A stretch of DNA of 64,000 nt, from the NCBI GenBank assembly GCA_037176885.1, contig JAWWNJ010000244.1:124001-188000 (forward strand), in the 5' to 3' direction. A program made the position numbers and the translations under genes. Positions within the stretch are counted from its first letter, which is position 1, and every line of letters starts with the position of its first letter. The DNA comes from Favolaschia claudopus (lineage: Eukaryota > Basidiomycota > Agaricomycetes > Agaricales > Mycenaceae). Shown here piece after piece: positions 42,237 through 64,000 of this stretch. The notes under the pieces are model-generated. The model saw nothing but the letters and a program-made list of their open reading frames with translations. It did no database searches and was not told where the DNA came from.

Positions 42237-42281
42237 GGGTGATGGCAAAGTAGCATACTAAAGCGACCTGCGAGGTACGCA

Positions 42282-42607
42282 GGTACAAGGACCATATTGT
42301 TGTAGTGTCTGTCTACGCGAGACTACCTGCGAGGGGGAACACTGGAGACAATCAGTGAGTATTTTTACGAAATTTGTAAAGAATTAGTTTTTCTTGGGTG
42401 GGGGTAGCGAGAAAATAGTAATGTAGGATGTAACAGTCTCTGCGTGAGCCTTGTTGGGGCTGTGGAGCACTTTCCCTCGACTCCCTGGCACCGATTGAAA
42501 CAGTTTGAGATTATTTCGGTGCAGCCAAAAGCGATGTTATTATGTGCATCCTGGAGATTACAACAACCGCAGGTACGAGGACCATATTGTTGTAGTGTCT
42601 GTCTACG
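42282..42607. repeat. Direct repeat of about 37 bp, 289 bp apart
   Basis: gcaggtacaaggaccatatt-gttgtagtgtctgtctacg near 42282-42320 recurs as gcaggtacgaggaccatatt-gttgtagtgtctgtctacg near 42571-42609. The left arm lacks both, so they arose after the inverted duplication; the second copy lies just past the arm border. Confidence 0.6.
42320..42410 (+). pseudogene. Tail fragment of the 478-aa family, right arm
   Basis: Downstream of the NLR stop the plus strand encodes EGEHWRQSVSIFTKFVKN then a stop, the eroded version of the EVEHWGQS-x-x-IF tail. It mirrors the fragment at 8466-8560 and is more decayed. Confidence 0.45.
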
Positions 42608-42609
42608 AG

Positions 42610-42973
42610 AGGCTAGGGCGAGATCGCAATAGCCCAAACCTAGCGACGCTGTGAGTTTTATTTTCGACAATGTGCTTCACCTCACTATGTGGCAAGTTCC
42701 GCCGGGACGAATCATGATGATGATGTCCGGAATATTTCTTGACTGACGCGCGAAGGCGAACATTGAAATGACCCCATGCATGGTAGATAAACGGCAAAGT
42801 AGAATGTAGCCTGCAGCAAATGCTCACCAGTGATCAAAGCAAATCACGCACCCCCGAGTCAATCTTACTCCTGCCAAGTGTACTTACCCTGACACATAGG
42901 TGAATCACGCAATGCAAAATGTACATGGTTCCCACCATCACGACGAAGCTCGGTGTTGAACATAAATTTTATT
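42610..42973. other. No gene recognised
   Basis: Flank between the right arm and the next minus-strand frame. It has an aatcatgatgatgatgtccgg stretch, but no coding, RNA or repeat signal that I can support. Confidence 0.35.
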
Positions 42974-44895
42974 TTATTGGATTTTTAGTTCCATTAGTAT
43001 TGCTGAGCAATCAACGAGGCCGCAGCGTACCCCAGCCGGTTTATATCCAGCGATATGTAGATATATCGATGCTTTCTTGTGGGAGGAAATAATTCTTGGA
43101 TAGTCGTTCTCCCCTTGAATTGGTAGTCGCTCTCTCAGCAGCCTGTGAGTCAATGAGTATGGACCAAATACAAGATTCCGACTTGCCCTCTCAAGTATAG
43201 CCTGTGGCGTGGCGGGAGGCCCACCATGAAGCGGATCTGGCAAGCTGGGTCCAGGCACACGCGAAGTCCACGTAGTGTCCTTCAACACTGGAGATTTAGG
43301 GAGCATAGCCTCACCAGGAGGTCGAAATTGCAGAGCCGTGCTGACCAGACCTGATCGCGTCTGTTCGGCTGCTGGGGTAGGAAGGGGTCGTGCACCATGA
43401 CTTGAACGAGGGGACACGGATAGCTCCTTGTGCTCGCCTTCAACGGAGTAGAAGACGGTGGCAGGTTGAGCTTCGGGCTCGCGCAGTGGATATATCGGCG
43501 ACTCCGGCAACTCCCGGCACACCCAAACCCGACGGACCATCACGCTTCCTGAGTCTTCCCCAGCAGAAAATTCACCTTGCAGTTTTCAAAAACAGTCAAG
43601 TTCTGCTCTTCTGTCTCCTTCACACTAAATTTCTCAAATCTGCGAAGGATATAACTTCACCCGTGGCCGAGCCGTGGCACGGCCGGGGCGGCCGTCTTTC
43701 GACGGGCCGTGTGCTGTGCCACCCGTGCCGTGACCTGGACCAAAATATGGTTGACGGCACGGCACCCGTTTGACGGCTACCGTCGAGCCGTGACCACGGT
43801 AACGGGCGGCAGCCCTAGAAAGGCAGTGTCCATCTCTTCAGGAATATGGAAGAAGTGGGCTAAGTCATAGGTGTGGTGACTATAACCTTGAGGCCAAAGC
43901 GGTCTGTAATGCGGTACTTGATCATATAAAAACTGCATAGCATCGGCCAGATGTCGCTCTTTAGAATTCATTTCTTGATAGATTTCGGGCGCTGTGGAAG
44001 TTGGAGACCTCAAGATCTCCTCCGTGGATACAATCTCCGAACGATACTTGGTAAGATTTCTTTGAGCAAGGTCCATTCTCTTGCTGAGAGCGGACTGCTA
44101 TCATCTCTCCTAAATGCCGAGCGCTTCTCAATACTGAAAGAAGAACTTGGCCAGGGTCGGTGGTAAAGACTGAAGTCCTTCCGGGGGATAAGGCCGCGGC
44201 TCTATCTAGAAGAGCCTGCATTTGCTTCAAAGTCCTCGAAACATGCATAAATTGGCTAGCTCCTAAGCCAAATTTGTCCACTGACGCCGTCTCATACGCT
44301 TTGAAGAGGGCCTCGAGATGTTGGATCACTTCTCGTGGGTCTATCCTCTGTTCTGGCGACTTAGGAGCTTCAGTAAGAGTAGTCATGGAGCTAGCTGTTG
44401 ACGGAGTCGGAGGCGAGGAAGGGGGCAAAGGACTATTCTCGACGATGTGGTCTAAATTGACCTCAAGAGGGACGACGGGGGAAGACACGTGTGTGGTTTC
44501 AAGCGTCGTAACCGGTAATAGCGGTTGGGCAGTAGGCGCTTTAGATTTCCGGTATATAGTGGGTAACGCTTGAAAATCCAATTGTTTTCCCCGATGTGTG
44601 GCGCCTTTAGTTCTTGAAGCAGCGGGACTGTCTACAGAAGGTCCAAAGGGCAATTGAAAAGGTTTCTTGACGGGGGATACTGAGCGCGAGTTGACAGTGG
44701 TAACGGGAAGAGATTTAGTCCTTGAGACACTGGGTAACTCAGGCTTAGCAGATCGCGCTGCCGAAGCTCGAGTTGGCGCGAATAAACGTGAACTGGCTGG
44801 TTCCGCCTTTACTGAGATTTGAGTGCGAGAAGTCGTTGTCCTCCCTCGAGCAGACGAAAAGCTCGGGATACACTGAGGGTCGGCCAGATCGTCTC
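42974..44895 (-). pseudogene. Ser/Pro-rich orphan gene, interrupted
   Basis: Minus-strand coding segments read in order: from about 44895 (DDLADPQCIPSFSSARGRTT) to 43961 with PLLPVTTLETTHVSSPVVPL and IDPREVIQHLEALFKAYETA; 44076-43816 with YRSEIVSTEEILRSPTSTAP and FFHIPEEMDTAFLGLP; and from about 43590 to 42974 with SGSVMVRRVWVCRELPES and AILERASRNLVFGPYSLTHR. The frame changes near 44080 (a possible short intron ending tagcag) and is cut at about 43816 by a GC-rich element. No start codon is seen for the first segment. Low-complexity N-terminal part plus a helical middle; a gag-like origin is possible but no zinc knuckle or enzyme motif is present. Confidence 0.35.
43660..43818. mobile_element. 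GC-rich hAT-like remnant
   Basis: The stretch is built of gccgtg/cacggc words. Read from the right, it begins ctagggctgccgcccgttac and gtggtcacggctcgacggta, resembling a TAGGG-type hAT end. The left end (cccgtggccgagccgtggca) is only loosely complementary and no 8-bp target duplication is seen. It interrupts the orphan gene at 42974-44895. Confidence 0.35.
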
Positions 44896-45782
44896 AGATG
44901 AATATTCCCAATGTGTCCACTTTGTGAGGACCCGCAAGTCCTCGTTGGGCTTTAATTCACTGAGAACAACGTAGGGCTGGCTCCGAGCTTGTGTGAAGGG
45001 CCTTAATAGATTACAGTCTGATTTCTCAAGAGCAATCCCTCTAGGCCGGATATCCGAGCGCTAAATGAAGGATTGCTCAACCTTGCTCGAATATTTCGTT
45101 GCAGGGAGAAGTGAGCGCCAGCAAGCGCTAATCGGGAGAATATCCCTTGTATATTCCTCACAAGGAGAATCTACGTTCCCCTTTCCTCTCTGTTTGACCC
45201 TTACCTCAATCAGCACCTTAGTAGGTCTGGAGAGGTGCTTTGGCGCAATCCAGAGGATGGGGGAGTAGATCAGATAGTAGTTATTTCTTCGTGTATCAAC
45301 TACAAGCTACATCAGGAAGTAACTAATTCAACGAGAAAAATATGCGTGATACAAGTACAAGATTTGAAGCTGGAGACTCGACACCAAGGAGTTGAACAGG
45401 CAGACACAGATTGTCGGACAGAAAGCTGTCCGTGAACTGGCACGGGAATCAAGTAGTACCTTCTGATCGTCATCCGTTCAGTAGAACTTGAGAGGGTGGT
45501 TTGCTGTCTTCAAATTCGTCCTCAACGTGTTCCGGAAAATCGGACCCGACAAGAAAATAACTAGACCGGTGACCGTCTGTCTATGGAGGCAAGCCTGTGG
45601 ATAGACAGACCGGTCAATCTGAGTTTGAAATGCCATGTCAATCTCGGTTACCAAAAAAGGTTATTGCAGCAGGGGTCGCCGAGTGATTTGATCGATGTCA
45701 AATACCGAACAAACAACGCGCTCCTCACCTTCTTCCTTCATCTGGACGCGTCTGATACCCTCCATGACCTCAATTAGCCAGC
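44896..45782. other. Mostly unassigned; hairpin and shared segment
   Basis: Holds the second copy (about 45365-45515) of the segment at 27890-28080. It also has a hairpin: gtctgtctat at 45575-45584 pairs perfectly with atagacagac at 45601-45610, with accgg/ccggt extending it. No open frame here has coding character. Confidence 0.4.
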
Positions 45783-48218
45783 ATGGACAACTCTAATACC
45801 CTTCTACTTCCTACTATAAAACTCTGGCTCTATTTTGCTCGTGGATTATCGCTCTCGGAACTCGAATCATTCGCCCAGCACAATATTCCGGCTAATCTTC
45901 CTTTACCTGCTGCATACCTCAATTCTCTCAACGATGACTACAAAACAATTGCCCTCAGAGCTTGCATTCTTGTTTTTATAGCTAGTAATAAGCGCATGGT
46001 TCCTTGACAATAACAGCTCGAAGCGACAAATGCACTCGCTCATGGTCTCGATTGCACCGTTGATTCTGGTACCGGCTCTGGGAAAACACTATGTCAAATC
46101 ATTCTTAATTTACTATATCCCAACAGCTCCAAATGCTACAGGTATTCATCAGCTCTTCGCTTGCACACCCTCTCATGATTGCCTAGGCTGCGGAATTGGA
46201 GCGCTGGGGAGTCAGTACAGCTTGCATCAATGAGGATACTCCAAGTGACCGTAACTTATGGGAGGTGCGTGCAACTCCGTCTCGTTACCTTTCTTTCTGC
46301 TCTAATAGTCAACAGCGCATCCGAGATGGACTCTACCAACACCTCCTTGTTCAACCGGGGCAGCTACAAAATACAAATATATCAGGGTCACCTGCCTCAA
46401 CTAGCCCGCCTCCTTCACAAACAAGCTTTTGTCAAAAGTATCGCTCGTGTGCACGTCGATGAAGCCCATTTCCACTATCCATGGTCTTCCTCCGTTTCGC
46501 CCTGCTTGGGGAAAGCTTATTGAATTCCGCCTTCGCCTTCCCAAGGGTGTTCCATTCCAGCTCAACTCCGGGATGCTACCGCCTCATATCAAGAAAGCTC
46601 TTCACGATCATTTAAATTTCGACCCGCAGCGCGCACTGTCTTCAAAGCTGTCATCCAATCAACCCAACATAGTCTACGCTACTCACTGAATTGTCGGCTC
46701 GCTGAAGGACTTTCGTAATGCCGACGTCTTGACTTCAATCCCCTACAAACCGCTTGTCAAATGTCTCGTTTTTGTAAGGGCAACCTTTAGGACCCGAGAT
46801 GTCTTGAGGGTCTAGCGAGGGAGAATCCAAAGTTAATTCAAGATGCTACTAGGAATACATTACAGTGCACCTAGCGAGGGAGAATCCAAAGAGAAGAAAG
46901 GCTAAGGATTCTTACGCTAGGTGTGGCAAACATATACTAACTAGTTCCCACAAGGCCGGGTCAACCGGCAATAGTCCCTGGCCCGATCACATGCTAAGTC
47001 CCACCTTGATGACGTAGTTGGACTGGGATCTTGTGTACCCAAAAATAGAACTCTGTCATAGTTTGATGGAGCTCCACAGGAATGATGTAATGGGACCCAA
47101 GTCCCTTTGTGTCATGCTGCGCAGAACAGGGGTTCCCCTGACAGTTTTCCTTGACGACACCGAGATCTAGACGACCGTCTCTCGGAGCATCTGCGGAACA
47201 CAGGGATCATTTGACACTATCATGGCGGCATGTCCAAAGACTATCTCACCAAGGTTTTCGACGATTTCTCTGACCCAAACGGTGTCTGCAAAATTTTGAA
47301 TGCGACAGAAGGTGCATCTACGGTAATTAATGTGTCATTCCCTAGCCTAATACGGTACCGGGTATTGATGTCATTCAGGGCCTGGATGTTCCCAATATTG
47401 AAGCTGTGATTGAATATGGACTACCGCAGAAAAAATCTACCAGTCAAGAACGTGGCGGAAGAGCTGGTCGGCGTGGGCAATTCGCTGTTTATCTTAGTAT
47501 GGCTGAGCCGTGGGCCTACACTGCTTCATTAGATACTGTTCTTGCTGACTGTATGGACCCGGATCGTCCGTTATGTGGTCGCCTCGCGAAAATGACTCCA
47601 AAACCTGCACGTGCTGGTCTGGCGATGATTCTATATGTTCGTTCTTCGATCTGTCTCTGCAAGATGATATCAGATTATCTCGCAGACCAATCACCGGAAG
47701 GTAAGTTCTCTTCCGTGTTACATGAAACTCATGCTTACACTCCGCTAGCCCTCTCAATATCCTTCGAGTGGTGTTGCGAGAAAGTTCACCCTGGTCGACC
47801 AGAACTACAATTTGATAAGCGCAAATTCTTCCAGGGTCGATTCATATACCAGGAAGCGGACAGATCTATTTACGCTGGCGCATCTGATGAGAAGGATTGT
47901 GTCCATCTGAATCCCCCAGTTTCCCGCAAGCGTGGACTACGCAGCACCTCGAATCGCAAAGTTGACCAACGTGCTCCACTTCAAGCACTCATTCGATCGT
48001 GGCTTACAAAGGCTCATTCAACCGATGAGCTACGCGATGTCCGTCCGGCGTCATTCATATTGGATGCAAAATCAATCAAGACCCTCTCGACCGTTCACCC
48101 AGACCGGATGAAGACAGTAGAGGACGTGACTGCAGCATTGGACGAAACCGAGGAATGGATGATGGAGTGGGGTTCTATGACGGTTTTTATCAGACAAAAA
48201 TACAATGCCATCCAATGA
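45783..48218 (+). pseudogene. RecQ-type DNA helicase, decayed
   Basis: The order of fragments follows a RecQ helicase. It opens with an N-terminal exon MDNSNTLLLPTIKLWLYFAR with LSELESFAQHNIPANLPLPA. Walker A is CTVDSGTGSGKTLCQ near 46053-46100. RWGVSTACINEDT precedes a DEAH box (ARVHVDEAHFH near 46445-46475), then GKLIEFRLRLPKGVPFQLNS. After a stop and an inserted stretch come SEHLR and YHGGMSKDYLT, STGLDVPNIEAVIEYGLP (spliced across about 47320-47380) and motif VI QERGGRAGRRGQFAVYL. The C-terminal frame 47406-48218 is open for 270 codons. At least three frame changes and an in-frame stop at about 46687-46689 rule out a normal product. RecQ enzymes unwind DNA 3'-5' in repair; Agaricomycete genomes often carry many decayed copies. 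Confidence 0.7.
46785..47135. repeat. Insertion inside the RecQ pseudogene
   Basis: Helicase coding similarity stops after PYKPLVKCLVF near 46770 and resumes at VFLDDTE near 47145. The stretch between has no coding sense. It contains a direct repeat, ctagcgagggagaatccaaa at about 46813 and 46870, and a small inverted structure caggggttcccctg near 47127. Borders and class undetermined. Confidence 0.4.
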
Positions 48219-50446: not shown

Positions 50447-50455
50447 ATGGCGACC

Positions 50456-51013
50456 TGTCACGTCCCGTGCCCCTTACGGCACTCCGAACTCCGACTCCGA
50501 ACTCCGGCCCCACGTCAAACACTGACCGGACACAGACTTGCCTTCGGACTCCGGGTTTTACGCAATGAAGGTCTTCTGAGCGTTTTCCCGTATAACTGTC
50601 TTGGCATTCTTATTGTCTCTTGCCTCATGTATGTTCCTATGACTTATGCATCACCGACATCCATCCTCCGTTATTGTCTTCGCTTAACACTTACCATTTC
50701 CGTCCGGACTCCTTATTGTTCTTATTGTTCTCCACCGGACTTACTCCGGACTTTCTACTTAGTATAAATACTTCTGTATTCCGTCTATGTACTTTAGTCT
50801 GAATATCGACTAAGTCTGTCTCTATCTTTGTTTGACTCCGTCCGAACTCCGCTCCGACTCCGCTCCGCAAATTGGGCCTTGGGCGTTCGGAAGGGCGCAG
50901 CGCACGAGCTGAAGCCAAGCCCACTCCGACACCTCGGACTCCGATCTCCGATCTCCGACCTCCGGTTCCGATCCGCGGACTTTGCCCTTTGAGTCCGTAC
51001 ACGGTACTTGACA
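50456..51013 (+). repeat. Retroelement 1, 5' LTR (558 bp)
   Basis: Starts tgtcacgtcccg and ends gtacttgaca, giving tgtca/tgaca ends. Differs from the 3' LTR by one extra base near gtgccc(a)cttacggc and substitutions at acacagac/acacggac and ataactgtc/ataaccgtc. Confidence 0.95.
50763..50770 (+). promoter_or_regulatory. TATA box in the LTR
   Basis: tataaata in the 5' LTR. The predicted transcript start agtctgaatat begins 33 bases downstream at 50796, a normal distance. The same box recurs in the 3' LTR at about 58419-58426. Confidence 0.7.
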
Positions 51014-51015
51014 GT

Positions 51016-51026
51016 ATATTCAGACT
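51016..51026 (+). promoter_or_regulatory. Self-priming primer-binding site
   Basis: atattcagact, two bases past the 5' LTR, is the exact reverse complement of agtctgaatat at 50796-50806 inside the LTR, 33 bases after the TATA box. The 11-nt length and position match the Tf1/sushi mechanism, in which the RNA's own 5' end folds back to prime minus-strand DNA synthesis instead of a tRNA. The role is inferred from this complementarity. Confidence 0.75.
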
Positions 51027-51048
51027 GCACTTCTGACGCCCACTGTCT

Positions 51049-52876
51049 ATGAATCGGGAGCCTTTCATCGGACCTCTCCCGAAACAACAAGCCGACCGCG
51101 AACAACGTGCTGCAGCCCGGCACCACCGCAGTCAGCTCATTGCTCCTCAACCAGTTTCTCCGGTCCGAACTTCTTTCCTCACCACATCTTCTGGCATTGC
51201 CGCTCGGGAAGCGGAATCTCGACGTCTTACGGATAACTTCGATCAAAGTCGCTGGGCTGCTTACCAGGCTTCTCATCCGACGGAAATCTACTCCAGGGAA
51301 GTCTTCTCAGCGAATCTCCGGCGGACCTCCGAAGCCGCTGCTCGCGCCGCACACCAACAACGCCAGACCGGGCACGTCTCCGGTATTCCTCCGACCATGC
51401 CCACCATAACCCAAACCACCACTACCACTTTGCCTACGGCTCCGGTTCACCCCATGGACTCCGCGTCCAACGCTCCTCACGATCGATCCCGCTTTGTGCC
51501 AGCTGGTCCGACCTCCGTTCTTCGGGAGGCGGACGAGGATCAACGGTCAGTTCACTCCTCCCAGCGTCTCTTCGGCAGTGCTGGGCCTTATCACCGTCCT
51601 GAGGATCATGGGTCTGCATTCTCTCGGTCTCCGAGCCCTCCTCGGGGCCCTCGTTCTCACAATCCGTTCCGCGAAGGCTCCGCTCCTCCGCCGGGCCCCG
51701 GCGGTGACGGAGGTGGCGATGACGGGGGTGATGACGGAGGCGGTGGAGATGGTCCTTTCGGACCCCGCAATCCACCTTCTCCTCTCCCTCCGCGTTTCGG
51801 TCGCCAACCCTTCACTATGAACGACATGCAGGCTCTCCTCGCGACATTCAACCAATCTCTCGGTCAGGCTATTGGAACTGCCATCACCGGTAACACCGGC
51901 TCCTCCGACAAGTCCCGGGCCCGCGTTCGCGACCCCGACACTTTCGATGGCAAGGATCCGGACAAGCTTCGGACTTTCCTGTTCCAGGGCTTGCTCAATT
52001 TCAACGACCGCCCCAGCGCTTTCCGGAGCGACCGCCAGAAAATCAACTACATGATTTCCTACCTCACTGGCGACGCGCTCGGTTGGTTTGAACCCTCCAT
52101 TGTCGACCCCGATCCTCTCGAGCCAACTCCGGCTTGGTTCTCGGACTACGACGTCTTTGTCCGCGAACTCCAGGTCAACTTCGGAGTTTACGACGCCCGC
52201 CAGGACGCCGAAAACGAGATCGTGGCCCTCTCCATGGCCGACAGTCAAAAGATCCAGCGCTACCTTGTCCGGTTCAACAAGCTATCGCAGCTTACCGGCT
52301 GGAATGCGATGGCCCTCCGCAAGACCTTTTACGACGGTCTTCCGGAGCGCATCCGGATCAAACTCCGTGACCTCCCCGGCGGACTCCCGACCGCTCTTGA
52401 CACCATGAAATTGGCAGCTCAGACGATCGACGCGAGTCACTGGGAATGGCAGAAGGAACAGAAACTCCGCACGGCTCACCGGGGTGCTCAGCCTTCGCCG
52501 AAGGACAAGCCCGGTAAGCCCGGCAACACCGGTACCTCCGGTAACCAGCCTAACGCGACCACCGCTGCTGTTGCGGGTGGAAACCGCAGGAAGAAGCAGA
52601 AGTCCGGTGGCGGCGGGGGGGAACGGCGGGAACGCCGGTGGATCCCCCGCTCAAGCTGCGACTCCTGCTCCGGCCGCGGAGAAACCCTACAAGAAGCACT
52701 TGGGCGCCGATGGGAAACTCCTGCCCGCCGAACGCGCTCGTCGCATCGCGGAGAATCTTTGCCTCCTGTGCGGAGGTAAGGGTCACCGTGCTGATGAGTG
52801 CCCGAAGAAGAAGTCCGCCGCCGCTCGCGCAGCTACAACTCCGGCTGCCGCTCCCGCTACCGAGCCGGGAAAATGA
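51049..52876 (+). pseudogene. gag: Retroelement 1 gag, with a +1 shift in a G run
   Basis: Starts MNREPFIGPLPKQQADREQR. A Ser/Pro/Gly-rich N-terminal half is followed by the retrotransposon gag core (DPDKLRTFLFQGLLNFNDRP, KINYMISYLTGDALGWFEPS, YLVRFNKLSQLTGW). At about 52611-52621 a run of seven G breaks the frame. The first frame ends at 52779, while the correct continuation is in the next frame to 52876 with NGGNAGGSPAQAA and a canonical CCHC zinc knuckle CLLCGGKGHRADEC. The TGA stop at 52874-52876 overlaps the pol ATG. The shift may be a mutation, a base-call error or, less likely, a programmed slip. Confidence 0.8.
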
Positions 52877-55800
52877 GCAGCGACCCTCGGACTCCGTCCG
52901 CGCGACCCGAGGGTCGCGACACTACTCCCGATCGCGCGGCTCTTCCCATTTTACGACTTAACGCTTCCGCTCTCTCTGATCCTAATGCTCTATGCCCTGT
53001 ACTTTCCTCTCCCCAAGTTGCCGTCGACTTCCGGACTCTCGTTGACTCCGGTTCGTCGCACTGCTTTATAGACTCTGTTTTTGTACATCCAATAATCTCA
53101 CGCGCGTTTCTATTCCTCCGATCGGACTCCGTCTGTTTGATGGCTCCTCCGGGACCACCATATCTGAGAGTGTCCACATAGATATCTCATTTCCCTCCGG
53201 TGACTCGACTCCGGTTGAACTCTACGTCACCCCTCTGGATTCCGCCTGCTCCGTCGTCCTTGGATACAATTGGCTTACCCGACACAATCCGTTGATTGAC
53301 TGGGTCTCTAGCCAAATCATTTTCCGTTCGCCCTGCTCCGCTGTTCCAACTCCGGCTCCGTCCGGAGTCTCTCCATCGGTTAAGTCCGATCCTGTTCCTC
53401 CTTCAGTGGAGCCTCCTGTTGCTCCGATGCCTCCTCCGCCGTCTCTCCCTTCCGAACCACTTCCGACTCCTCCTTCCATCTCTATCATCGGAGCCGCTGC
53501 GTTCGCCTCTGCCCTTCGGGACAAGGGCAACGCGGTGTTTCGTCTGGGCCTCTCCGAGGTCTCAGGCAAGTCCTCCGGTATCTCCGATCCTCCGGACCTT
53601 TCGGGGATCCCTCCGGAGTACCAGGACTACGCCGACGTCTTTTCGCCCACCGAGGCGGAGAAGTTGGCACCACATCGGCCATACGATCTCAAGATCGAAC
53701 TCGAGGACGGGGCTGCTCCGCCGCCCGGTCCTATCTATTCCCTTTCCCAGCTCGAGTTGAAGGCCTTGCGCGAGTTTCTCGACAAGAACCTAAACAACGG
53801 CTTCATCCGGCAATCCACCTCCCCGCACGGCGCTCCGATTCTCTTCGTCAAGAAAAAGTCCGGTGAACTCCGGCTTTGCGTTGACTTCCGGGCTTTGAAC
53901 CGAATCACCCGGAAGGACCGGTATCCTCTTCCTCTTATCTCCGATTTGTTGGATGCCGGTCGGAGTGCTAAAATCTTCACCAAAATAGACCTTAAACACG
54001 CCTATCACCTTGTCCGTATTGCCGACGGCGACGAATGGAAGACCACTTTCCGGACGCGCTACGGCTCTTACGAATGGCTTGTTATGCCGGAAGGTCTCAC
54101 CAACGCTCCGGCCGCTTTTCAGCGCTTCATGAACGACCTCTTCTCCGACCTTCTCGACGTCTACGTGGTTGTCTACCTCGACGACGTCCTCATCTTCTCC
54201 GACAACCCGGCGGACCACAAGAAACATGTCCGGGAAGTTCTCCGGCGTCTCCGCAAGGCTGGAATGTACGCTTCGCTCAAGAAGTGTGACTTCAGCGTCG
54301 ACACCATCGAATTCCTCGGCTACATCATTTCTCCGGCCGGACTCCGCATGGACGAGTCGAAGGTCAAGGTCATCCGCGATTGGCCGGAACCCCGTAAAGT
54401 CAAGGACGTTCAGTCTTTCCTTGGCTTCGCTAATTTCTATAGGCGCTTCATTGCCAACTACTCGGACATCGTTGTCCCTCTTACGCGCCTCACGCGGAAG
54501 TCCGAGAAGTGGCTCTGGTCTCCGGCTTGCCAGGAGGCCTTCGACGCGCTTAAACTTGCTTTCACCACTGCTCCGATTCTCACTCACTGGACTCCGGGAG
54601 CCCAACTCATTCTGGAGTCCGACGCCTCCGACTACGCCATTGCGGCCATTCTGTCGCAAGTCTGCCCCGACGGCCTTATCCGTCCGATCGCTTTCCACTC
54701 TCGGACTTTGGTCACCTCGGAGTTGAACTACGACACGCACGACAAAGAACTCTTGGCTATTTTCGAGGCTTTCCGCGTCTGGCGACGCTACCTCGAGGGC
54801 GCCGTTCCTCCGATCGACGTCGTCACGGACCACAAGAATCTGGAGTACTTTTCCACCACCAAACTCCTGACTCGGCGACAGGCTCGCTGGTCGGAGCTCC
54901 TTTCCGCCTTCAATTTCATACTCCGCTTCCGCCCTGGTCGCCTCGGAGGCAAGCCCGATGCCCTTACTCGCCGTTGGGACGTCTACCCAAAAGAGGGGGA
55001 TAGTGGCTACGCCAGTGTTAATCCGCATAACTTCCGACCTGTATTCACTCAGCATCAGCTCAGCGCTTCGCTCCGGGCCTCCGCTGTGTGGACTCCGGCC
55101 CTCCGGGCAGGTCAACTCATGGACGTTACTCAGCTCCACGCGGATATCCGAGCGGCTATTCCTTCCGATCCTATTGCTAAGCTCCATTTTAATACCTCTT
55201 CCAATCCCCGATGGGTTACTCATGACGGTCTTCTATACCAAGACGGACGAATCTTCGTACCGGACTCCGGCGATCTCCGCCTCCGGGTCCTCCTCGACAA
55301 ACACGATCACCAACTCGCTGGACACTGGGGACAGAATAAAACCCTGGCCCTGGTCCGACAGGAGTACGTGTGGCCCGGACTCCGGACTTTCGTTAAGGAC
55401 TATGTCCGATCCTGCGTATCTTGCAAACGAGGCAAGTACGCCCGTCACAAACCGTATGGCTTACTCCGGCAACTCCCAGTTCCTGAACGTCCGTGGGACT
55501 CCATTTCCATGGACTTCATCGAACAGCTGCCTATGTCCGACGGATATACCAGCATCCTCGTTATCGTTGACCGGCTGTCCAAGATGGGGTTGTTCATCCC
55601 CTGTCGCGGAAAGATTAACGCCTCCGAGCTTGCCCATCTCTTCATCCTTCACGTCTTCTCCAAACACGGAGTTCCCCGACACGCTACCTGCGACCGCGGT
55701 ACGGAATTCATCGCTCAGTTCTTCCGGTCTCTCGGAGATGCTCTCGGAATGAAAATTCACTACACCGCTGGCTATCACCCATCTGCCGACGGACAAACCG

Positions 55801-56585
55801 AGCGCGTCAACCAGACTATCGAGCAGTACCTCCGTATCTATTGCAACTACCAGCAGTCTAACTGGGCTCCGCTTCTCCCTCTCGGCGAATTCGCTTACAA
55901 CAATGCTCCGTCCGACACTACCGGAGTATCTCCGTTCTTCGCCAACAAGGGATTTAATCCTTCTATTGATGTTCACCCCGAGCGCGACTTGGTCTCCGCG
56001 CGCGCCCGCGACTACGTTACGGACTTGGACGAACTGCACCAGGAACTCCGGAAGCAGATGTCCGCCGCTCAGAAACGTTATCAAGGTCCTGCGGACAAGC
56101 GCCGGACTCCGGATCCGAAGATCAACATCGGTGACGAAGTCTACATCAGCGCCGCCGGATTCCGCTCCGCTCGCCCCGGGAAGTCCTTTACGGAGTTGTT
56201 CTACGGCCCTTACAAGGTCCTGGCGCAGCCCGGTCCCGCTTCTTTCACCGTCGAGCTTCCAAAAGATAAGCACCTGATTCATCCCGTCTTCCACATATCC
56301 CAACTCGAACTCAGCCATCCTAATCAAATCCCCGGTCGGGTCCAACCTCCGCCTCCGCCGATCGAAGTCGACGGAGAACTGGAATGGACTATCAAAGAGA
56401 TTGTTAGTAGCAAACTCGACCGCCGGCGGAAACCTCCGCTCATGTACCTTGTCCGTTGGGACGGGTACGAGGGATTACCTCAGGAGTACGATTGGATGCG
56501 CGCGGATGAACTCGGGAATGCTCAAGAGGCCATTGAGGACTTTCACAAGGCGCATCCGGACTTGCCTGGTCCGTTACCGCTTTGA
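52873..56585 (+). pseudogene. pol: Retroelement 1 pol: PR-RT-RNaseH-IN-chromodomain
   Basis: The ATG at 52873 lies in ATGA with the gag stop. Protease: VDFRTLVDSGSSHCFIDS (catalytic DSG). A 1-nt deletion near 53093 shifts the frame; the correct frame (IPPIGLRLFDGSSG onward) then runs open to 56585. Within the 1097 codons counted from 53292: RT with IDLKHAYHLVRI and catalytic YLDD near 294-298; RNase H with ESDASDY near 442; integrase zinc finger H...H...C-x-x-C (SCVSCKRGK) near 670-710; DDE residues D738 (ISMDFIEQL), D799 (CDRGTEFI) and E835 (GQTERVNQ). A chromodomain (EWTIKEIVSSKLDRR, MYLVRWDGYEG) sits at about 1030-1090. Chromodomains tether integration to modified histones. Apart from the frameshift all catalytic motifs are intact. 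Confidence 0.9.
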
Positions 56586-56862
56586 CCGGACTCCGTCCGG
56601 ACTCCGGTGCGCTCTAACCTCTGTGTCTCTATCGTCTGCCTCGACTTCCTCCCTGTCGTCTCGTTCCCCTTCTCTCTCTTATCTCATCCCCGGCCACCTC
56701 TGTATCACTTCCGGCCACCTCTGTATCACCACCTTCTTCCGGTTCGGACTCCGTGCGCAGTTCAAGATATTATATTTACATTTTTTTGGGCCAAGCGGGC
56801 CCAGCGCGCACAAGTATTCTACGGGCTCTTTGGCCCCCGACTCCGGCAGTCCGTTTCTGCGA
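56586..56862. other. Convergent 3' ends of pol and the antisense gene
   Basis: About 280 bases separating the pol stop from the antisense gene stop. It contains a tandem pair cggccacctctgtatcac (56690-56726) and a tatttacatttttttgggc stretch. Presumed 3' UTR of the antisense gene on the minus strand; no gene seen. Confidence 0.45.
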
Positions 56863-57952
56863 CTAATTTCCGGTGGCCGTCCCCGACCCACCGGCCTCCG
56901 TCTCCTCGTCCTCTCCGAGCGCATCTGGCTCCTCCATCGGCCCATGCACCGGACCTTCCTCCTCCTCCGAGTCGGAGTCGGAACCCGACGACGACTCCTC
57001 CGTCTTCTTCTTCTTCTTCTCCTCCGCATCCGACTCCGAGTCTTCCTCTTCCTCGTCCTCTTCATCGTTCTCCGACGGCGCAACCGGACCCCGCGTGTCC
57101 GCCACGTACTCCAATCCCGGAGATTCCTCCCGGACCGTCGTCATCCGAACCCGATCCGACACCTCCCCCATCCGCACCTCTATCGCCGCCAACCGCTGCT
57201 CCATCCGTCGGACCCCGGTCGCTACTCCGCGCAAGCTCGCCGCAATGTTGTCCAGGTGCGCGTTGGTCTCCTCCGTTAGCTGCGAGCGGTGGACGGTGTG
57301 CTCCACGAAGTGGCTGCTGAAGGTCTCCAGCACGCGCGCCAGCTCCGTCATGGCCGGACCGCCACGAGCGGGCTCCGACGCCGGCGGAGCTCCGTGCTCC
57401 GACGTCCGCTGCCTCTTGTTCTCATGGTTCGGACCGAACGAACAGCCGAGCTTCTTGCCAGCGCAGCGTGCGCAAGCCGAGGCGCGTCCTCCGGAACGCC
57501 GCTCGCACTTGGCGTTGTCCGAGACGCACTGTTCGCACTGTAAGTCAAAGTCAGTGGAGTCCGTACTCCGGACTGCGACGCACCCTGGTGATCTCTTCCA
57601 CCTCCACCTCCTCCGACGACTCCCGATCCCTCTTCTTTTCCTTCTTCTTCTCCGCCGCCTTCTTCTTCCGCTCCTTCTCCTTCCGCGCCTCCTCCTTGGC
57701 TCTCTCCTCCTCTATCCTCTGCTTCTCCACCGCCGCAAGCGCCTCCGCCATCTTGAAGCGTCTTGCCTTCTCCGCCTCCGCGGCCTTCTCCGCCTTCGCC
57801 TTCTTCAACAAGTCATGCACCGCCCACCAATCCTTCATCTCCTGCGCCGTCGCCTCTCCCTTGCGAACCATGTCGAGGAGGTCGGCCTCCGAGACCTCAG
57901 CGAGGCGGCGGGTGTAGTCGTCGTGGGTTTCGTTGTCGCGGCGGAAGGGCAT
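56863..57952 (-). CDS. Antisense spliced gene: coiled coil with Zn2Cys6-like cluster
   Basis: On the minus strand inside retroelement 1. Exon 1 57952-57584 (123 codons, MPFRRDNETHDDYTRRLAEV, then a long Lys/Glu/Ala coiled coil). Intron 57583-57538 (gtgcgt...ctgac...ttacag, 46 nt, phase 0). Exon 2 57537-56863 (224 codons); 347 aa in all. Exon 2 opens with six cysteines spaced C-x2-C-x6-C-x10-C-x2-C-x6-C (CEQCVSDNAKC, ACARCAGKKLGC), exactly the spacing of fungal Zn(II)2Cys6 binuclear clusters, at about residues 124-155. A helical region (MTELARVLETFSSHFVEHTV, EETNAHLDNIAASL) follows, and the C-terminus is acidic (ENDEEDEEEEDSESDAEEKK). Without splicing the frame ends at once after exon 1. Role unknown: DNA binding, or control of the element or host, is inference. 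Confidence 0.75.
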
Positions 57953-58097
57953 GGTGGGGTGTTTTTTGGAGATGGTGGTGGTAAGAGAACAAGAGAGGTT
58001 TTAACTCCGACAGGCTGCGGAAAAAGTTTAAATACGAGCTAGAAGCGGCACGGAGATGCCGCATCAACTTCTATTCTCACGCCTCGGGGCTCGGCGC

Positions 58098-58110
58098 TAA
58101 GAGGGGGATA
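58098..58110 (+). promoter_or_regulatory. Polypurine tract
   Basis: taagagggggata directly upstream of the 3' LTR, the expected plus-strand primer of retroelement 1. Confidence 0.7.
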
Positions 58111-58111
58111 C

Positions 58112-58670
58112 TGTCACGTCCCGTGCCCACTTACGGCACTCCGAACTCCGACTCCGAACTCCGGCCCCACGTCAAACACTGACCGGACACGGACTTGCCT
58201 TCGGACTCCGGGTTTTACGCAATGAAGGTCTTCTGAGCGTTTTCCCGTATAACCGTCTTGGCATTCTTATTGTCTCTTGCCTCATGTATGTTCCTATGAC
58301 TTATGCATCACCGACATCCATCCTCCGTTATTGTCTTCGCTTAACACTTACCATTTCCGTCCGGACTCCTTATTGTTCTTATTGTTCTCCACCGGACTTA
58401 CTCCGGACTTTCTACTTAGTATAAATACTTCTGTATTCCGTCTATGTACTTTAGTCTGAATATCGACTAAGTCTGTCTCTATCTTTGTTTGACTCCGTCC
58501 GAACTCCGCTCCGACTCCGCTCCGCAAATTGGGCCTTGGGCGTTCGGAAGGGCGCAGCGCACGAGCTGAAGCCAAGCCCACTCCGACACCTCGGACTCCG
58601 ATCTCCGATCTCCGACCTCCGGTTCCGATCCGCGGACTTTGCCCTTTGAGTCCGTACACGGTACTTGACA
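58112..58670 (+). repeat. Retroelement 1, 3' LTR (559 bp)
   Basis: Same sequence as the 5' LTR apart from about three differences; ends gtacttgaca and is followed by the cgacc target copy. Confidence 0.95.
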
Positions 58671-60830
58671 CGACCACACCAAGTAGCCCCCACCGAGATC
58701 CCACTACCGCTGGATCTTCCCAATTCGCTACAGCGAGTCTGGAGCCTCAGACCGACGAGCAAGGCCCTGCGGCGGGGCCCAGCGCCACCACATCATCAAT
58801 TGGACCACGACTAAGAGTTACGATGGGCGCCAATGGCCTCCCTGTCTTAGTCGACCCGTTAACGGGCACACGGTACGAGGTATCTGACGATGAGGCTGTA
58901 CCCGACATCCAAGCCCCTTCGCCTACTCGCCCGGCGGTACCCACAGTAGATACAGAGGGGACGGGCGGGCCCACCCCTTCGTCCCCTTCTAGTCTCACGC
59001 GAGAGGACGCAGACAACGCTCCTCTCACCCCTGAGGTGCTCCTGGCCTCGTTAATCGCGGATGTAAGCACCTCCCCGCTAAGTGAGCCCCAACTGTCCCG
59101 CTTTAGTACGCTCCGGGGGATCATGTCCCTGAGCCGGGACCCCCTACTCACTACGACTGGGCTAGTCGCAGGTCAGCGCGACCATGTACGCGGGCTGGCT
59201 CGAAGCCTCAGACAACTGCGTAACGACGTGGCTGAGCGCTTTGTAGAGCTCAGTGAAGAGATCACTACCGCCAACCAACGAATGGAAGTGACTCTCAGCA
59301 ACAACTTGAGAGTTCTTCGCGCAACGGGAGCCACCGACGCACAGTTAGCGCACTTAGTCATAGCCGTACAGGCAGGCCGGGACCAACCACTGGAGCGTGT
59401 CAATCTGGATGCCCAGCTCCATGAACCCCCAGCCCAGGCCGTCCAGCTGGAGGAATTGAGGCCTGCAGTGGACAGAGCTCTCCCCCCTCGTAGGGAAGGA
59501 GAATCTCATGAAGATTTCCTGACGCGAGGTAACGCCTCACTGGGACATCGAGTGCGAGCTGCTAGTTCTTTCGCTAACTCCGCACCTACCGATACACCGG
59601 GGCCTCGTACGAACGCTCCGCGAGTAACGCGTTTCGTTGACGAACGCTCCCCAACTCCGGCCGTGAGTCGCGACACCCCACCGCACATGCAGCGGAGCAC
59701 TGTGGGTGTGGGATGCGGGACGGTTAACCCAATTGGGTATAACCAGTCCATCTCTGGCGTACTCACTGAACGTGGACGGGACGGGGACACAACCCCAAAT
59801 GTCTTCGAGCTATTCCTTGAAGAAAAGGCCCAGCAGATTCACATTATGATCAATAGAACTCTGGGCCAAACTATTCGAGCACCTCCGCGCCCGCCCAAGC
59901 TCCCCGAGCCTTCCAAGTATAAGGGAGAAGACGACGACACCACCTTTATGACGTGGCTGAGTCGCCTGTGCACTTGGCTTCAGGGTAGTGGACTAGGCGG
60001 CCCGGACTATGAGGACAGTAGGATAGTGTACCTCAAGACCTCACTAGAATCGCATGCGATTGAATGGTTTGACACTGAAGTCGAGCCGCTGACGAGGCCC
60101 AGTGAAATTGATCATAATTTTGAGGCCATCGTGTGCGCCATGCACCGACGATTTGTAACGACGGCAACGGCGACTCGCGCCACTAGAGAATATGAAGCCG
60201 TGCGGTATGACGAGAGCAAAGGAGTTGAGTTCCTTGCTAGCGAACTCAAACGCACCGCACTTAGAATGCGTGAACCCCCTGCGGATATCACGCTAAGGCA
60301 ACGGTTCATGCGTCTTCTACCCGCTGGCGTCCACAACGAGCTCATCCGACGTGGGTTGTATACCGAGTATGTCGAATGGGATAGGTGGAAGAATCATGCT
60401 CGCATGTGGATCGAGGGCCAAGGAATGATGCGGAGAGACACCCGAGTGCCAGAATCGAGTCGCCCCGCTAGGACGACCACGGCGAGAGCAACGACGAAGA
60501 GTGTTGGGAAGAGTACAGCAAGAGGCAGAGTCACACCACGCTCTAACGCCCCAATCGCCGCTCGGGCTGGGGCCACCGCTGTCAACCACTCTTCTTCTCC
60601 CACCACCATGTCCAAAGATAAAGTGGGATCCAACCTCAATCCCGCCGCTTCACGATCCAACAAGACATGCTTTGGCTGTGGGCTAATCGGGCACATCGCC
60701 AGCGATCCCGTGTGCCCGCGCTACAATGAGTCTGCTTCAACCAGACCGAAAAATAACGCGCAGATACGCGCTCAACGCGTGGTATCGAGCTACTCAGATG
60801 ATGGTGAAGAGGAGGAGGAATTAGCCTCCG

Positions 60831-61972
60831 ATGAAGATGAGTCGGCCGTTGAAGATGAAGTTGATGGATTGTGGGGGGGCGATCAGTACGATGGGGGACG
60901 TCCTCCTCGACGATTTCCCTGCTGATCATGATCACCATGAGACCCACGATGACAACGAGCACGTCGTGGAAGAAACTGACCCCCACGAAGCTCCCGACTT
61001 GGCTGAGCTAATAGACAGTGCTGCCCCGACCGAAGTACGCGTCGGGGCCATGCAATACTTCGCCATGCGCATCGATAACGACGCGCCGGCTGATCGAGAA
61101 GTCATACCTGGAGCTAATGAATACTCCAGTTCACAACCCATGAGGACCGCCATCATGGATACCCTGGTTGCTGTGGTCGGATTTTCTGGGCTGGGACATC
61201 CCGAATGGGACCCAGCTCGAGAGGACCAGGAGCGCCTAGATCGCAACGATCACTGGGACTTTGAATGCCACGACCACGACTCGCTCATTCACGCGTTTGA
61301 AGTGCAGAGAGGTGTTGGCCCGACGCTATAATGCGCCTTGGTGCTGAGGAGAGTGCCAGGGCGGCGTGGGAGGGAGTATTGGCGATTCAGCCGCTAATAC
61401 TCACTAGCTTTACGAGTGGTGTCCTCCGCACCACCGTCATAGACGTCGAGGCGGAGTCCGCCCGAATTTCAGGGTATTTCTCGGTGCTGCAACAATCAAT
61501 CACCGACATACAAGCCTTGATCGACAGAAGGGAGGGAGCCTTTAACGACTTAAGACACCTCCCCCCTCTCGTCGACGAAACGAGGTCGAGAGCAGGACGC
61601 ATACGTCGCCTTGCTACCCTCGCTAGCGCCCGCACCCTTGACGATATGCGTGTTGGGCTTGAATTGCTAGAACACCGCCTGTCGCGTTAGTGAGATACGC
61701 GGGGCTATTGAAAACGAGCTTACTCGTCGACAATTTGCCCGAGAAGAGTATAGAGGACGATCCTCACCGCCCTCTAACCCCCCAAGCTACCCTGGGTCGC
61801 CCCACGACTCGGACGATTACTTTCCCGCTGACGATCGGCTGTCTCTGAGTCAGGTCCGAGTGGCGCACTCCGCACCATCACCGACTCCCTCCTCTGGGTC
61901 ATCCTTAGAAATCAGGCTGGTTGACCCACCACCGACGAAGACTCACCTCCCCATACCGAGGCCTCATGGACT
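60831..61972 (+). pseudogene. Retroelement 2 gag-pol linker in three frames
   Basis: A frame from 60831 to 61331 (ADHDHHETHDDNEHVVEETD, then MDTLVAVVGFSGLGHPEWDP) ends in TAATG, where its stop shares a base with the ATG of the next frame (61331-61690, MRLGAEESARAAWEGVLAIQ). A third frame then continues (IRGAIENELTRRQFAREEYR, SPPSNPPSYPGSPHDSDDYF) to about 61970. All three read like parts of one acidic, disordered polyprotein linker, so the breaks are probably decay. The TAATG overlap is noted as a possible re-initiation site. Confidence 0.45.
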
Positions 61973-63142
61973 ATGGGGAGCGAGAGCTCTTTTACCATAG
62001 ACTCCGATGACACCCACATGGCTCACGTAGGAGACGATGGGCTCCCTGGGGATGGTTCGCCATCAGCGCTAAACAGCACCACTCCGGGCGGGCACATACC
62101 TGCTCAAGCTATGGACGAGGCCATCCTCCGCTCTTTTAGAATAAATTCTGCATCGTCCTCTGAGTTACTTACAACTATCGTGGACACGAACGGGGATGTG
62201 CGCGTTGTGAGCTCGGAATTACCCCGACACCACCGCTATCATCCCGCATTCCGCGCCGAACATCGCCACGCTATGACTTTGGCAATAGCCGAACGTGCGG
62301 AAGAGCTGCATGTGCCCATCGTGGACGTAGAAGCTTGGGTGACTGCCCAATCCCGACCCGTCGTTGCACACGACGGTAGTATTCTGCGGTCTGTCGACGG
62401 CATGCCAGACCAAACCCCAGTACTATTCCCGGGCCTGGTAATCCACCAGGGAATGTCTGCCCTCGACCCCGAGTACGATGACTACGACGCGTGGCCAGGC
62501 TTCTGCGTAGGGTTCCTCGGCACTAGGAGTGAGGCTGCGCATGATTCCACCATGGCTCACTTCCCTGCGCCTCCCCCTCCGGACTACTCTCACTTGATGG
62601 CAGTACGGGTGGAATACTTACCATCCGTCAGACGCACCAAGTCCATTCCCCTCAATACTTCTGGGTCAGTAGGTCTAATGGACCAACCGACCCGCACCAC
62701 CAAAAACATCGCCTGTATCTCGGCCATGATCTCAATTGGAGGGACCAAGGCTTACGCATTATTTGACTCGGGCAGCAACACGGACTCTATGACCCCTGAG
62801 TTCGCCAAGGCTATAAACGGGGTTCTGATTCCATTGGATGAGCAGGTCACTCTCCAACTTGGATGTGTCGGCAGCCGGTCGAAGATTAACTATGGCACCC
62901 GCGTCCCCGTCGACTTTGGAGGAATCAAGGGCCACGTTTACTTTGACCAAGTGAACCTGGACCGATATGACGTTGTCATAGGCACCCCCCTTATGAACAA
63001 ACACGGTATCGTCCTGGACTTTGGGAAGCGAGAGGTTCGCTTCCCCAAGGGCCCTTCCATCTCCGCGTTATCTAATGTGGAGGAAGCCGCTCTCATCAAC
63101 GAACGCACCCAACGGGGCTCTTCACGTAGAGCCCGAGCTTGA
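61973..63142 (+). pseudogene. Retroelement 2 protease region
   Basis: A 389-codon frame. The N-terminal part is disordered and linker-like. The C-terminal part is a retropepsin-like domain: ISIGGTKAYALFDSGSNTDS with the catalytic DSG near 62770, FAKAINGVLIPLDEQVTLQL as flap-side strands, then LDRYDVVIGTPLMNKHGIVL. After RFPKGPSI the frame ends at 63142 while coding sense continues in another frame (HVEPELDFQSLPRPL), so the pol frame is broken here. Confidence 0.65.
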
Positions 63143-64000
63143 CTTCCAATCACTCCCACGGCCGCTGACCGAAAGCTGCGTGCGTCAGTACTGGAATGCG
63201 ACGACGGGCAGCATCGCTTCCAGCGAGCTGCCCACATGTACTTTTAACTCAGGATGAATATCACGTATGGGTCCGCGAGAACCGCAATTGTGTGCCTAAG
63301 ACCACGGTCAACGACTTGCCTGACTATGAGGCAATGAACTACCTTCCCTCTCTCCCCGAATGGTACCGGTTCATCTTAGTGAGCGAGGATGAATTCAAGT
63401 CGGGTGACCCACTTATCGACTTACGCCATATCGAGTGTCGTGCCGAGAATGACCTACCCTGTCACCCGGTAGTCGAAGAGTATCATTTATCTATACCCGA
63501 AGCCATGCGGCTTTGACCGGGAGAATATGACCATCCCCGACACTCTAGAAAGCCGAGTGACACTCCTGGGCTACAAGAGCTCGACATTATCCCTCGCCAT
63601 TCTCAGCAGGGCCTGGAGGCCCGACTTTACTGGGCCTACCAGATGGAAATGAGTCACATACTTGGTCTACGAAGCGCTCGCATAGCGGCTATGGCTGCTG
63701 AGGCCCAATCGTCTAACGAGTCGGGCCCTGAGGTTGACCCTGTACATGCTCAAGAACTCCGGGACAAGTGGTTTGCTGAGTACGAAGATATGCTCGGACC
63801 GATACCGCTTGAACTCCCCCCGCTACGAGAAATTAATCACGAGATCAACCTCATCGACAACGACGCAAAGTACAACTTCCATTTACCTCGCTGCCCTGAG
63901 GCACTGCGACCGGAGCTTCGCAGCAAGATAGAGCGATATACCACCGCTGGGTGGTGGGAAATGAGACCCGTGTCGCAGGCAGCCCCGCTCTTGTGTATCC
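63143..64000 (+). pseudogene. Retroelement 2 start of reverse transcriptase, 3' partial
   Basis: Coding sense passes through one short frame to about 63240, then into the frame with LTQDEYHVWVRENRNCVPKT and LPSLPEWYRFILVSEDEF. This has a stop at 63514-63516, after which the same frame is open to the window end. Its last part, WFAEYEDMLGPIPLELPPLR, HEINLIDNDAKYNFHLPRCP and IERYTTAGWWEMRPVSQAAP, is the conserved N-terminal lead-in of Ty3/gypsy reverse transcriptase. The catalytic YxDD lies beyond the window. Confidence 0.65.

Follow-up and report, generated by a model that had tools for sequence, protein, structure and literature searches.

An antisense, intron-bearing gene with a six-cysteine cluster carried by a chromovirus of Favolaschia claudopus

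Antisense genes of long terminal repeat (LTR) retrotransposons are a known kind of accessory gene, so far without an established function. Since antisense open reading frames (ORFs) between pol and the 3' LTR have already been described in plants and in the fungal element Boty, with their function given as unknown (PMC7264820, PMC11963269, PMC8365987), the kind of gene treated here is known. The plant class aORF-3R includes Grande gene23, RIRE2, Retand ORF4/TRP28 and PvRetro13 (PMC11963269), and Boty of Botrytis cinerea, with its gene brtn, is likewise a fungal LTR element with an antisense gene (PMC7264820, PMC8365987). Here we analyse a stretch of 64,000 nucleotides from the mushroom Favolaschia claudopus (contig JAWWNJ010000244.1, positions 124,001 to 188,000 of the forward strand; hereafter the window, in whose numbering positions are given), in which a Ty3/gypsy chromovirus carries an intron-bearing antisense gene between pol and the 3' LTR. 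In the literature searched, mainly open-access, no title or abstract dealt with a fungal retrotransposon with an antisense zinc-cluster gene, and as far as this search reaches four features are new: the zinc cluster, the conservation of the intron, the hypervariability of the gene and the CGG words that match the cluster. The first-pass annotation, which knew of no described chromovirus with such a cargo, is thus to be qualified with regard to antisense ORFs, known from plants and Boty, and to spliced antisense regulators, known from the retroviruses treated below.

The gene resembles the plant aORF-3R in its place, as it runs antisense to pol in the interval that separates pol from the 3' LTR, and it is present in most copies (9/9 loci of its own family and 10/10 of a sister family), yet less conserved than gag-pol. 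In contrast to the plant genes, it resides in a fungal chromovirus, codes for a six-cysteine cluster, has an intron kept in all copies found and forms a hypervariable island, whereas Retand is assigned to a non-chromovirus lineage and the main text of the Retand paper does not contain the word intron (PMC11963269). Spliced antisense transcripts are known to arise from the 3' LTR in the retroelements human T-cell leukaemia virus type 1 (HTLV-1), for HBZ, and HTLV-2, for APH-2 (PMC3185765). HBZ, a nuclear regulator that combines an activation domain with a leucine zipper (PMC3185765), is a bZIP and not a zinc-cluster protein, and no relationship is claimed. A further system, VANC of the Arabidopsis VANDAL elements, combines an element-coded protein with a dense family motif in one orientation, a combination found in the window family as a pattern only. 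VANDAL elements are DNA transposons. VANC has conserved and variable regions, like the window protein (PMC5735166), and its motif is family-specific, dense, arranged in one orientation and rare in other transposable elements (PMC5735166, PMC10398659). Unlike the words of the window family, VANC motifs are mainly noncoding and in tandem repeats; the protein is a different one, and binding to the motif has been shown for VANC (PMC5735166), whereas for the window protein we infer it.

The antisense gene, its copies and its relatives

On the minus strand, exon 1 (57952-57584; 123 codons), which codes for a small helical domain and a long charged helix and is the most variable part of the gene, is followed by exon 2 (57537-56863, stop included) with the zinc cluster, a second coiled coil and an acidic tail. 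The 46-nt phase 0 intron between them (57583-57538, minus strand) reads GTGCGT...CTGAC...ACTTACAG, with GT..AG borders and a CTGAC resembling a branch point. Spliced together, the exons yield a protein of 347 amino acids (aa), in which helices flank the six-cysteine cluster on both sides (57442..57537, minus strand; residues 124-155; C-x2-C-x6-C-x10-C-x2-C-x6-C). This two-exon structure between pol and the 3' LTR, as given in the first-pass annotation, is exact, and the public model R3P38DRAFT_3244791 (P0001) is identical to the spliced prediction in 347/347 residues; the genome of F. claudopus strain CIRM-BRFM 2984 was annotated with the help of RNA-seq overall (PMC10905254). The antisense gene of the window is a real two-exon gene, above chance: a chance ORF is ruled out by the conserved intron, by exon indels in multiples of three and by reading-frame controls. 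A long ORF on the sense strand was rejected as the real gene, the reverse strand of exon 2 giving an omega (ratio of nonsynonymous to synonymous change) of 0.62-1.33 in three frames vs 0.51 for the antisense frame; exon 1 does not separate the strands by this test. Ahead of the start codon, a conserved region of 159 bp (57953..58111, minus strand) adjoins the inner side of the 3' LTR and is the probable promoter. In the window family it holds TATTTAA at 58034-58028, 82 nt before the antisense ATG, and on its other strand a polypurine tract at 58099-58111.

In the F. claudopus genome, the gene occurs in at least nine copies (given C-labels below; stretches extracted from the assembly have L-labels), and the identical nine places carry a near-identical pol end. 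The intron sits at one position in 9/9 copies and measures 46 nt in eight of them and 47 nt in C166, the sole intron indel against the window copy being of 1 nt. Exon lengths differ from the window copy by multiples of three in 7/8 copies, and the frame is intact in 8/9, the broken copy being C81 with two single-base exon length differences. Since the 5' flank of C81 is that of C60 and C244a (91/91 bases) and its 3' flank that of the window copy (300/300 bases), ectopic recombination or chimeric assembly seems to have given rise to C81 and C244a. Both (L003 and L007) lie near contig starts, and their 3' flanks differ from that of C60. Four LTR-similar loci (C48, C163, C188, C6) show no six-cysteine frame in the stretches examined and are not further gene carriers, and a match on C45, made up of two short overlapping matches, was dismissed as low complexity.

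Selection on the gene was assessed by Nei-Gojobori counts over the eight intact copies, C81 being left out for its shifted frame. For exon 2, omega amounts to 0.10-0.62 in pairs without C166 and 0.55-0.79 in pairs with it. For exon 1 it is 0-0.25 between near-identical copies and 0.47-1.04 between divergent alleles, apart from a value of 2.5 for C32-C166 that depends on 3 synonymous changes. With five representatives pooled, exon 2 reaches 0.51, and the gene's own frame is the lowest of six. These substitution counts indicate that the antisense reading frame is under purifying selection overall. The expected omega below 1 among F. claudopus copies is therefore seen in exon 2, while exon 1 of the window family shows no clear constraint. 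With the intron in 9/9 and the frame in 8/9 copies, the first-pass view that a chromovirus stably carries an intron-bearing gene is borne out. Its argument that an antisense intron cannot be removed from the sense RNA and so survives fits the retention of the intron throughout.

A sister chromovirus family, with a pol 57.6% identical to that of the window family over 1100 residues and a pol end matching Chromo with 37.0 bits, has the same layout. Among 150 of 734 candidates scored, it is represented by at least ten loci with pol ends matching at 44-46%, and the antisense gene follows pol in 10/10 of the loci found, uninterrupted in nine and split in C28, where 4.4 kb separate its parts. The nine uninterrupted genes code for 594-613 aa, and all carry a 46-nt intron beside the first cysteine, which in the window family is of phase 0 and lies right before the cysteine codon and in the sister family is of phase 1 and lies two bases earlier. 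Here, too, a public model (P0008, 604 aa) equals the spliced prediction. Omega over five representatives (C28 left out, C7 included) is 0.54 in exon 1 and 0.43 in exon 2, and the gene's frame is lowest in both. As a profile comparison of the two proteins yields no alignment beyond the region of the cluster (60 columns, E 4.7e-4, probability 33%), their homology rests jointly on place, orientation, intron and cysteine spacing. Fragments at C155:104779-105071 are 69-72% identical to the N-terminus of the sister protein and may represent a fourth, decayed relative.

Weak matches to the cluster, in frames of about 300-519 aa (typically 484), were found in an LTR element of 16.9 kb (40 of 382 candidates scored). 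This third family, high-copy and of Ty3/gypsy type, has terminal repeats that measure 626 bp or more (for instance C125:1590 and 17899; C235:92052 and 108358), with copies at C125:1590-18527 (L071) and C235:92052-108986 (L072). Its pol matches RNase H and integrase in the C1 copy, and no chromodomain match was obtained in the C-terminal frame. Antisense between its pol and the 3' LTR lies a frame of 217 aa with two cysteine half-sites, and a second antisense frame of 484 aa contains CLNCVLNYAECRPVGGRSSVCVRCAHYKHKC, with a canonical 57-nt intron candidate upstream. The third-family cluster is 51% identical to that of the window protein (18/35). Among the other zinc clusters found, this one, from a different family of retroelements, comes closest. 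The first-pass annotation had suggested that a host-type gene was captured. A recent capture finds no support in view of the same layout in two families of 58% pol identity, and we reject it because none of the 94 listed genomic PF00172 matches (150 of 392 candidates scored) falls at an antisense-gene locus and because protein searches, whose sensitivity is limited to shared 5-residue words, found relatives only among F. claudopus element copies.

Variation of the gene between element copies

Judged from alignments of the copies, the antisense gene is a hypervariable mosaic island in an otherwise near-identical element. Window-family copies share 97.7-100% identity in the LTRs, 96-100% in the region ahead of the gene and 97.8-100% in the region that follows it. 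The 3' end of pol is 99.1-100% identical without C166 and 88% with it, probably because of an internal deletion in this copy, whose LTRs are 5.9 kb apart, and gag, for which four copies were compared, has 0-2 differences in most bins of 100 bases and 3-7 in a few. Identity between alleles of the gene, in contrast, is 81-92% for exon 1, 78-98% for the intron, 86-98% for the part with cluster and coiled coil and 92-100% for the acidic part, and in 50-base windows no excess comparable to that of the gene was found outside it. Divergence sets in right at the start codon in C32 and C166 and near the intron in C29, and it ends at or before the stop. In the complete copies C244b, C29 and C32, the gene differs by 4.8, 7.8 and 8.5% and the flanks by 0.5, 1.0 and 1.3% (p 2e-11 or lower), each copy having its own target duplication. 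Because synonymous sites and the intron have diverged as well, the alleles are old and not only fast at amino acids.

The mosaic is plain in C32, which in exon 1 is nearest to C166 over the first two thirds and to C12 in the remainder, continues with an intron of window type and a cluster and coiled coil nearest to C29, then comes nearest to C12 again, and ends in a tail nearest to the window copy. The sister family shows the island again, with the gene differing by 12.6% and the flanks by 1.4% between C39 and C109 and by 23.4 vs 4.6% between C39 and C5b, and C79 holds a C109-type intron in a C39-type gene. For a retrotransposon, a gene several-fold more variable than the backbone of its element would be an uncommon indication of an arms race within it.

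CGG-triplet words and a proposed function

Zinc-cluster proteins usually target CGG triplets. The window element (50456..58670, plus strand) is dense in such words, with 137 CTCCG and 25 CGGAG on the plus strand and 17 CTCCG per LTR, which corresponds to 19.7 CTCCG/CGGAG per kb vs 2.06 per kb in the window outside the element. The longer word CGGACTCCG occurs 13 times vs 0.13 in shuffles. By part, CTCCG is found 17 times in the 5' LTR vs 1.4 by shuffle, 19 times in gag vs 8.1 and 55 times in pol vs 22.2 in shuffles that preserve protein and codon usage, a count reached by 0/200 of them; the sister LTR has 11 vs 1.6. The preferred word is GGACTCCG in the window family and CCTCCGGC in the sister family. 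In aligned pol, 5/24 sister CTCCG share columns with the 48 of the window element, therefore density has been kept while most sites differ. Genome-wide, clusters of three ACTCCG number 197, including the family's own LTRs, vs 85 for the reversed control. Within the elements, the short regions flanking the genes show no or weak CTCCG enrichment. Another chromovirus family, with a chromodomain in 3/3 pieces scanned, has 1.0-2.5 words per kb in 6/6 of its 3' pieces, and no six-cysteine pattern was found in their frames of at least 110 aa. Of the LTR-similar loci, 4/5 are word-rich to some degree (L066 18/13, L067 28/27, L068 16/9, L070 84/44, the last including an LTR of the window family itself), and L069, with 2/6, is not. 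L070 (C90:482000-489300) and L067 (C163:483600-487800) are CTCCG-rich, have LTR-like ends and show no long gag-pol-like frame by eye; they are possibly non-autonomous relatives that keep the motif. The third family is instead rich in CCGCGG, two CGG triplets back to back, found 28 times in a piece of 9.9 kb and 15 times in one of 6.5 kb where about 1-2 are expected from base composition, dispersed and not in tandem. The full TCCGCGGA, the site of Pdr1/Pdr3 in yeast, occurs four times in L072.

Taken together, these data suggest, with an even chance of being right in our estimate, that the gene is an accessory regulatory gene of this retrotransposon lineage that acts in trans on its own family. 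It would be transcribed from the conserved 159-bp region just inside the 3' LTR, and the protein would dimerise through its coiled coils and bind CGG triplets by means of the zinc cluster, to which the motif enrichment points indirectly, so that the CTCCG/CGGAG words over LTRs and body would be its binding sites. Acidic tail and variable N-terminus would then exert the action in trans, most likely with the outcome that copies are kept transcriptionally open against host silencing in a VANC-like manner, or alternatively that sense transcription is tuned as by HBZ. The variable N-terminal part may face a fast-changing partner, and recombination between copies may keep reshuffling the alleles. 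More tentatively, and with doubt prevailing, one could imagine a general self/non-self system of mushroom Ty3/gypsy elements, in which an antisense zinc-cluster protein reads the CGG code of its own family, ACTCCGG or CCTCCGGC in one lineage and everted CCGCGG in another, and shields it from silencing, while an arms race and recombination between copies of otherwise near-identical backbone render its partner-facing N-terminus hypervariable.

Several observations weigh against this proposal of an accessory regulator. The Zn(II)2Cys6 class is defined by the spacing Cx2Cx6Cx5-12Cx2Cx6-8C, which the window protein satisfies and has in common with Gal4-type factors, hence the first-pass label holds for the spacing and not for the Pfam cut-off. 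Zn_clus (PF00172) finds no match in P0001, P0006 and P0010, and in the sister proteins P0008 and P0009 it scores 13.0 and 14.3 bits, below the cut-off of 21, with matches covering only positions 15-37 of the 39-position profile. The basic residues that are usual in the first loop of zinc clusters are absent from the window protein, its cluster has GAL4 as best profile match in the PDB with a non-significant E=1, and the cluster of C7 (L064) lacks the second cysteine (CDNF) in a frame still open. An AlphaFold model from seven sequences (mean predicted local distance difference test, pLDDT, 63.5; predicted template modelling score, pTM, 0.28), with confident helices up to about residue 110 and fair ones at 211-250, is unconfident over the cluster. 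Besides, a TATA-like word of this type was not found in the two sister-family upstream regions checked, and a profile comparison gives no alignment between the exon-1 parts of the window and sister families. Pooled omega for exon 1 of the window family is 0.85 (five representatives) and reaches 0.51, 0.78 and 0.84 in three other frames, of which that with 0.78 is also open, therefore this exon adds no support for constraint. No island is seen in 2/8 sister pairs, C39-C7 (12.6 vs 11.2%) and the near-identical C109-C108 (0.3 vs 0.8%), and in the third family divergence is patchy and extends beyond the gene. With regard to the words, CTCCG also fills gag, pol and the antisense gene itself, unlike the mainly noncoding VANC motifs, and it is not enriched in the third family (2.7 per kb in L048). 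The finding that the top 6-mer contains CGG or CCG in 5/5 pieces of gene-bearing families vs 5/20 control pieces is a post hoc observation and weak taken alone, since 5/20 controls are also positive.

Of the alternatives, the one that touches the target words is the most probable, although we still consider it rather unlikely: the CTCCG/CGGAG richness may be unrelated to the protein and reflect an RNA packaging signal or a lineage-specific repeat expansion. The strand bias of 137 CTCCG vs 25 CGGAG could mean a signal in the sense RNA, and the motif is found in coding sequence and, as ACTCCG clusters, also elsewhere (197 vs 85), whereas VANC target motifs are likewise arrayed in one orientation (PMC5735166) and a gene-bearing family outside this lineage shows the CGG theme again in another word, which is palindromic. 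Unlikely to a further degree is a repressor or copy-number control, HBZ-like or self-limiting, with CTCCG words as operators that shut down sense transcription. This reading shares the anatomy of HBZ, a spliced antisense nuclear regulator lowering sense transcription from the LTR (PMC3185765), and fits a motif dense in LTRs, but why a self-repressor should have a hypervariable N-terminus is not obvious; the small number of copies found is compatible with repression as well as protection.

Improbable, in our judgement, is a role of the protein in particle assembly or nuclear entry rather than transcription, with the six cysteines as a structural zinc site. Nuclear import and accessory-factor roles have been discussed for plant antisense ORFs (PMC7264820), and a structural site would agree with the Zn_clus cut-off not being reached, yet CGG words and acidic tail would be left unexplained. 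It is also very improbable that locally high mutation or the assembly produced the hypervariable island as an artefact. It is true that 86.8% of BUSCO genes are duplicated in the assembly, which suggests that both haplotypes are held (PMC10905254), and that C81 and C244a look chimeric, one 5' flank being common with C60, but the island holds between the complete copies C244b, C29 and C32 with their own target duplications, is mosaic and recurs in the sister family. Hardly any weight falls to the reading in which the antisense RNA and not the protein matters, as a trigger of double-stranded RNA or as a decoy: antisense transcripts have been proposed as regulators (PMC7264820), yet the conserved intron, the exon indels in multiples of three in 7/8 copies, an antisense omega below 1 and nine coding sister loci would not be expected of it. 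In this context, a single genome offers three families, natural alleles, an intron that marks the coding strand and a lineage-specific candidate target word, and candidate words together with alleles make the function directly testable by binding and expression assays.

The carrier element and its surroundings

The carrier is bounded by a 5' LTR of 558 bp (50456..51013) and a 3' LTR (58112..58670), both on the plus strand and differing by 2 substitutions and 1 gap column, and by the target-site duplication CGACC (50451..50455 and 58671..58675). Its pol frame (53046..56585, plus strand) contains reverse transcriptase (RVT_1, 2.9e-39), RNase H, integrase and a chromodomain; the Chromo score is 23.4 bits over the whole frame and rises to 26.6 bits, above the cut-off of 25.1, when the C-terminal piece is scanned. 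The gag frame (51049..52779, plus strand) has capsid-type matches and stops short of the CCHC knuckle, itself found in a different frame; single-base length differences to sibling copies occur in late gag (3/4 compared) and near the pol start (4/4). For these reasons, gag and pol of the window copy may be damaged and the copy defective, whereas the antisense gene is intact. As the 5' and 3' LTRs are identical within C60 and within C29, the chromovirus family is young.

The chromovirus is itself nested in the gag-like frame of another element, with ATGGCGACC before and CGACCACACC after the insertion. As seen at 58676-64000, the insertion lies directly after the first codons of this gag-like frame, which gives a weak zinc-knuckle match. 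Further upstream, at 40000-48000 of the window, the words GCCACA and CCACAG are strongly over-represented, perhaps as part of a tandem repeat array.
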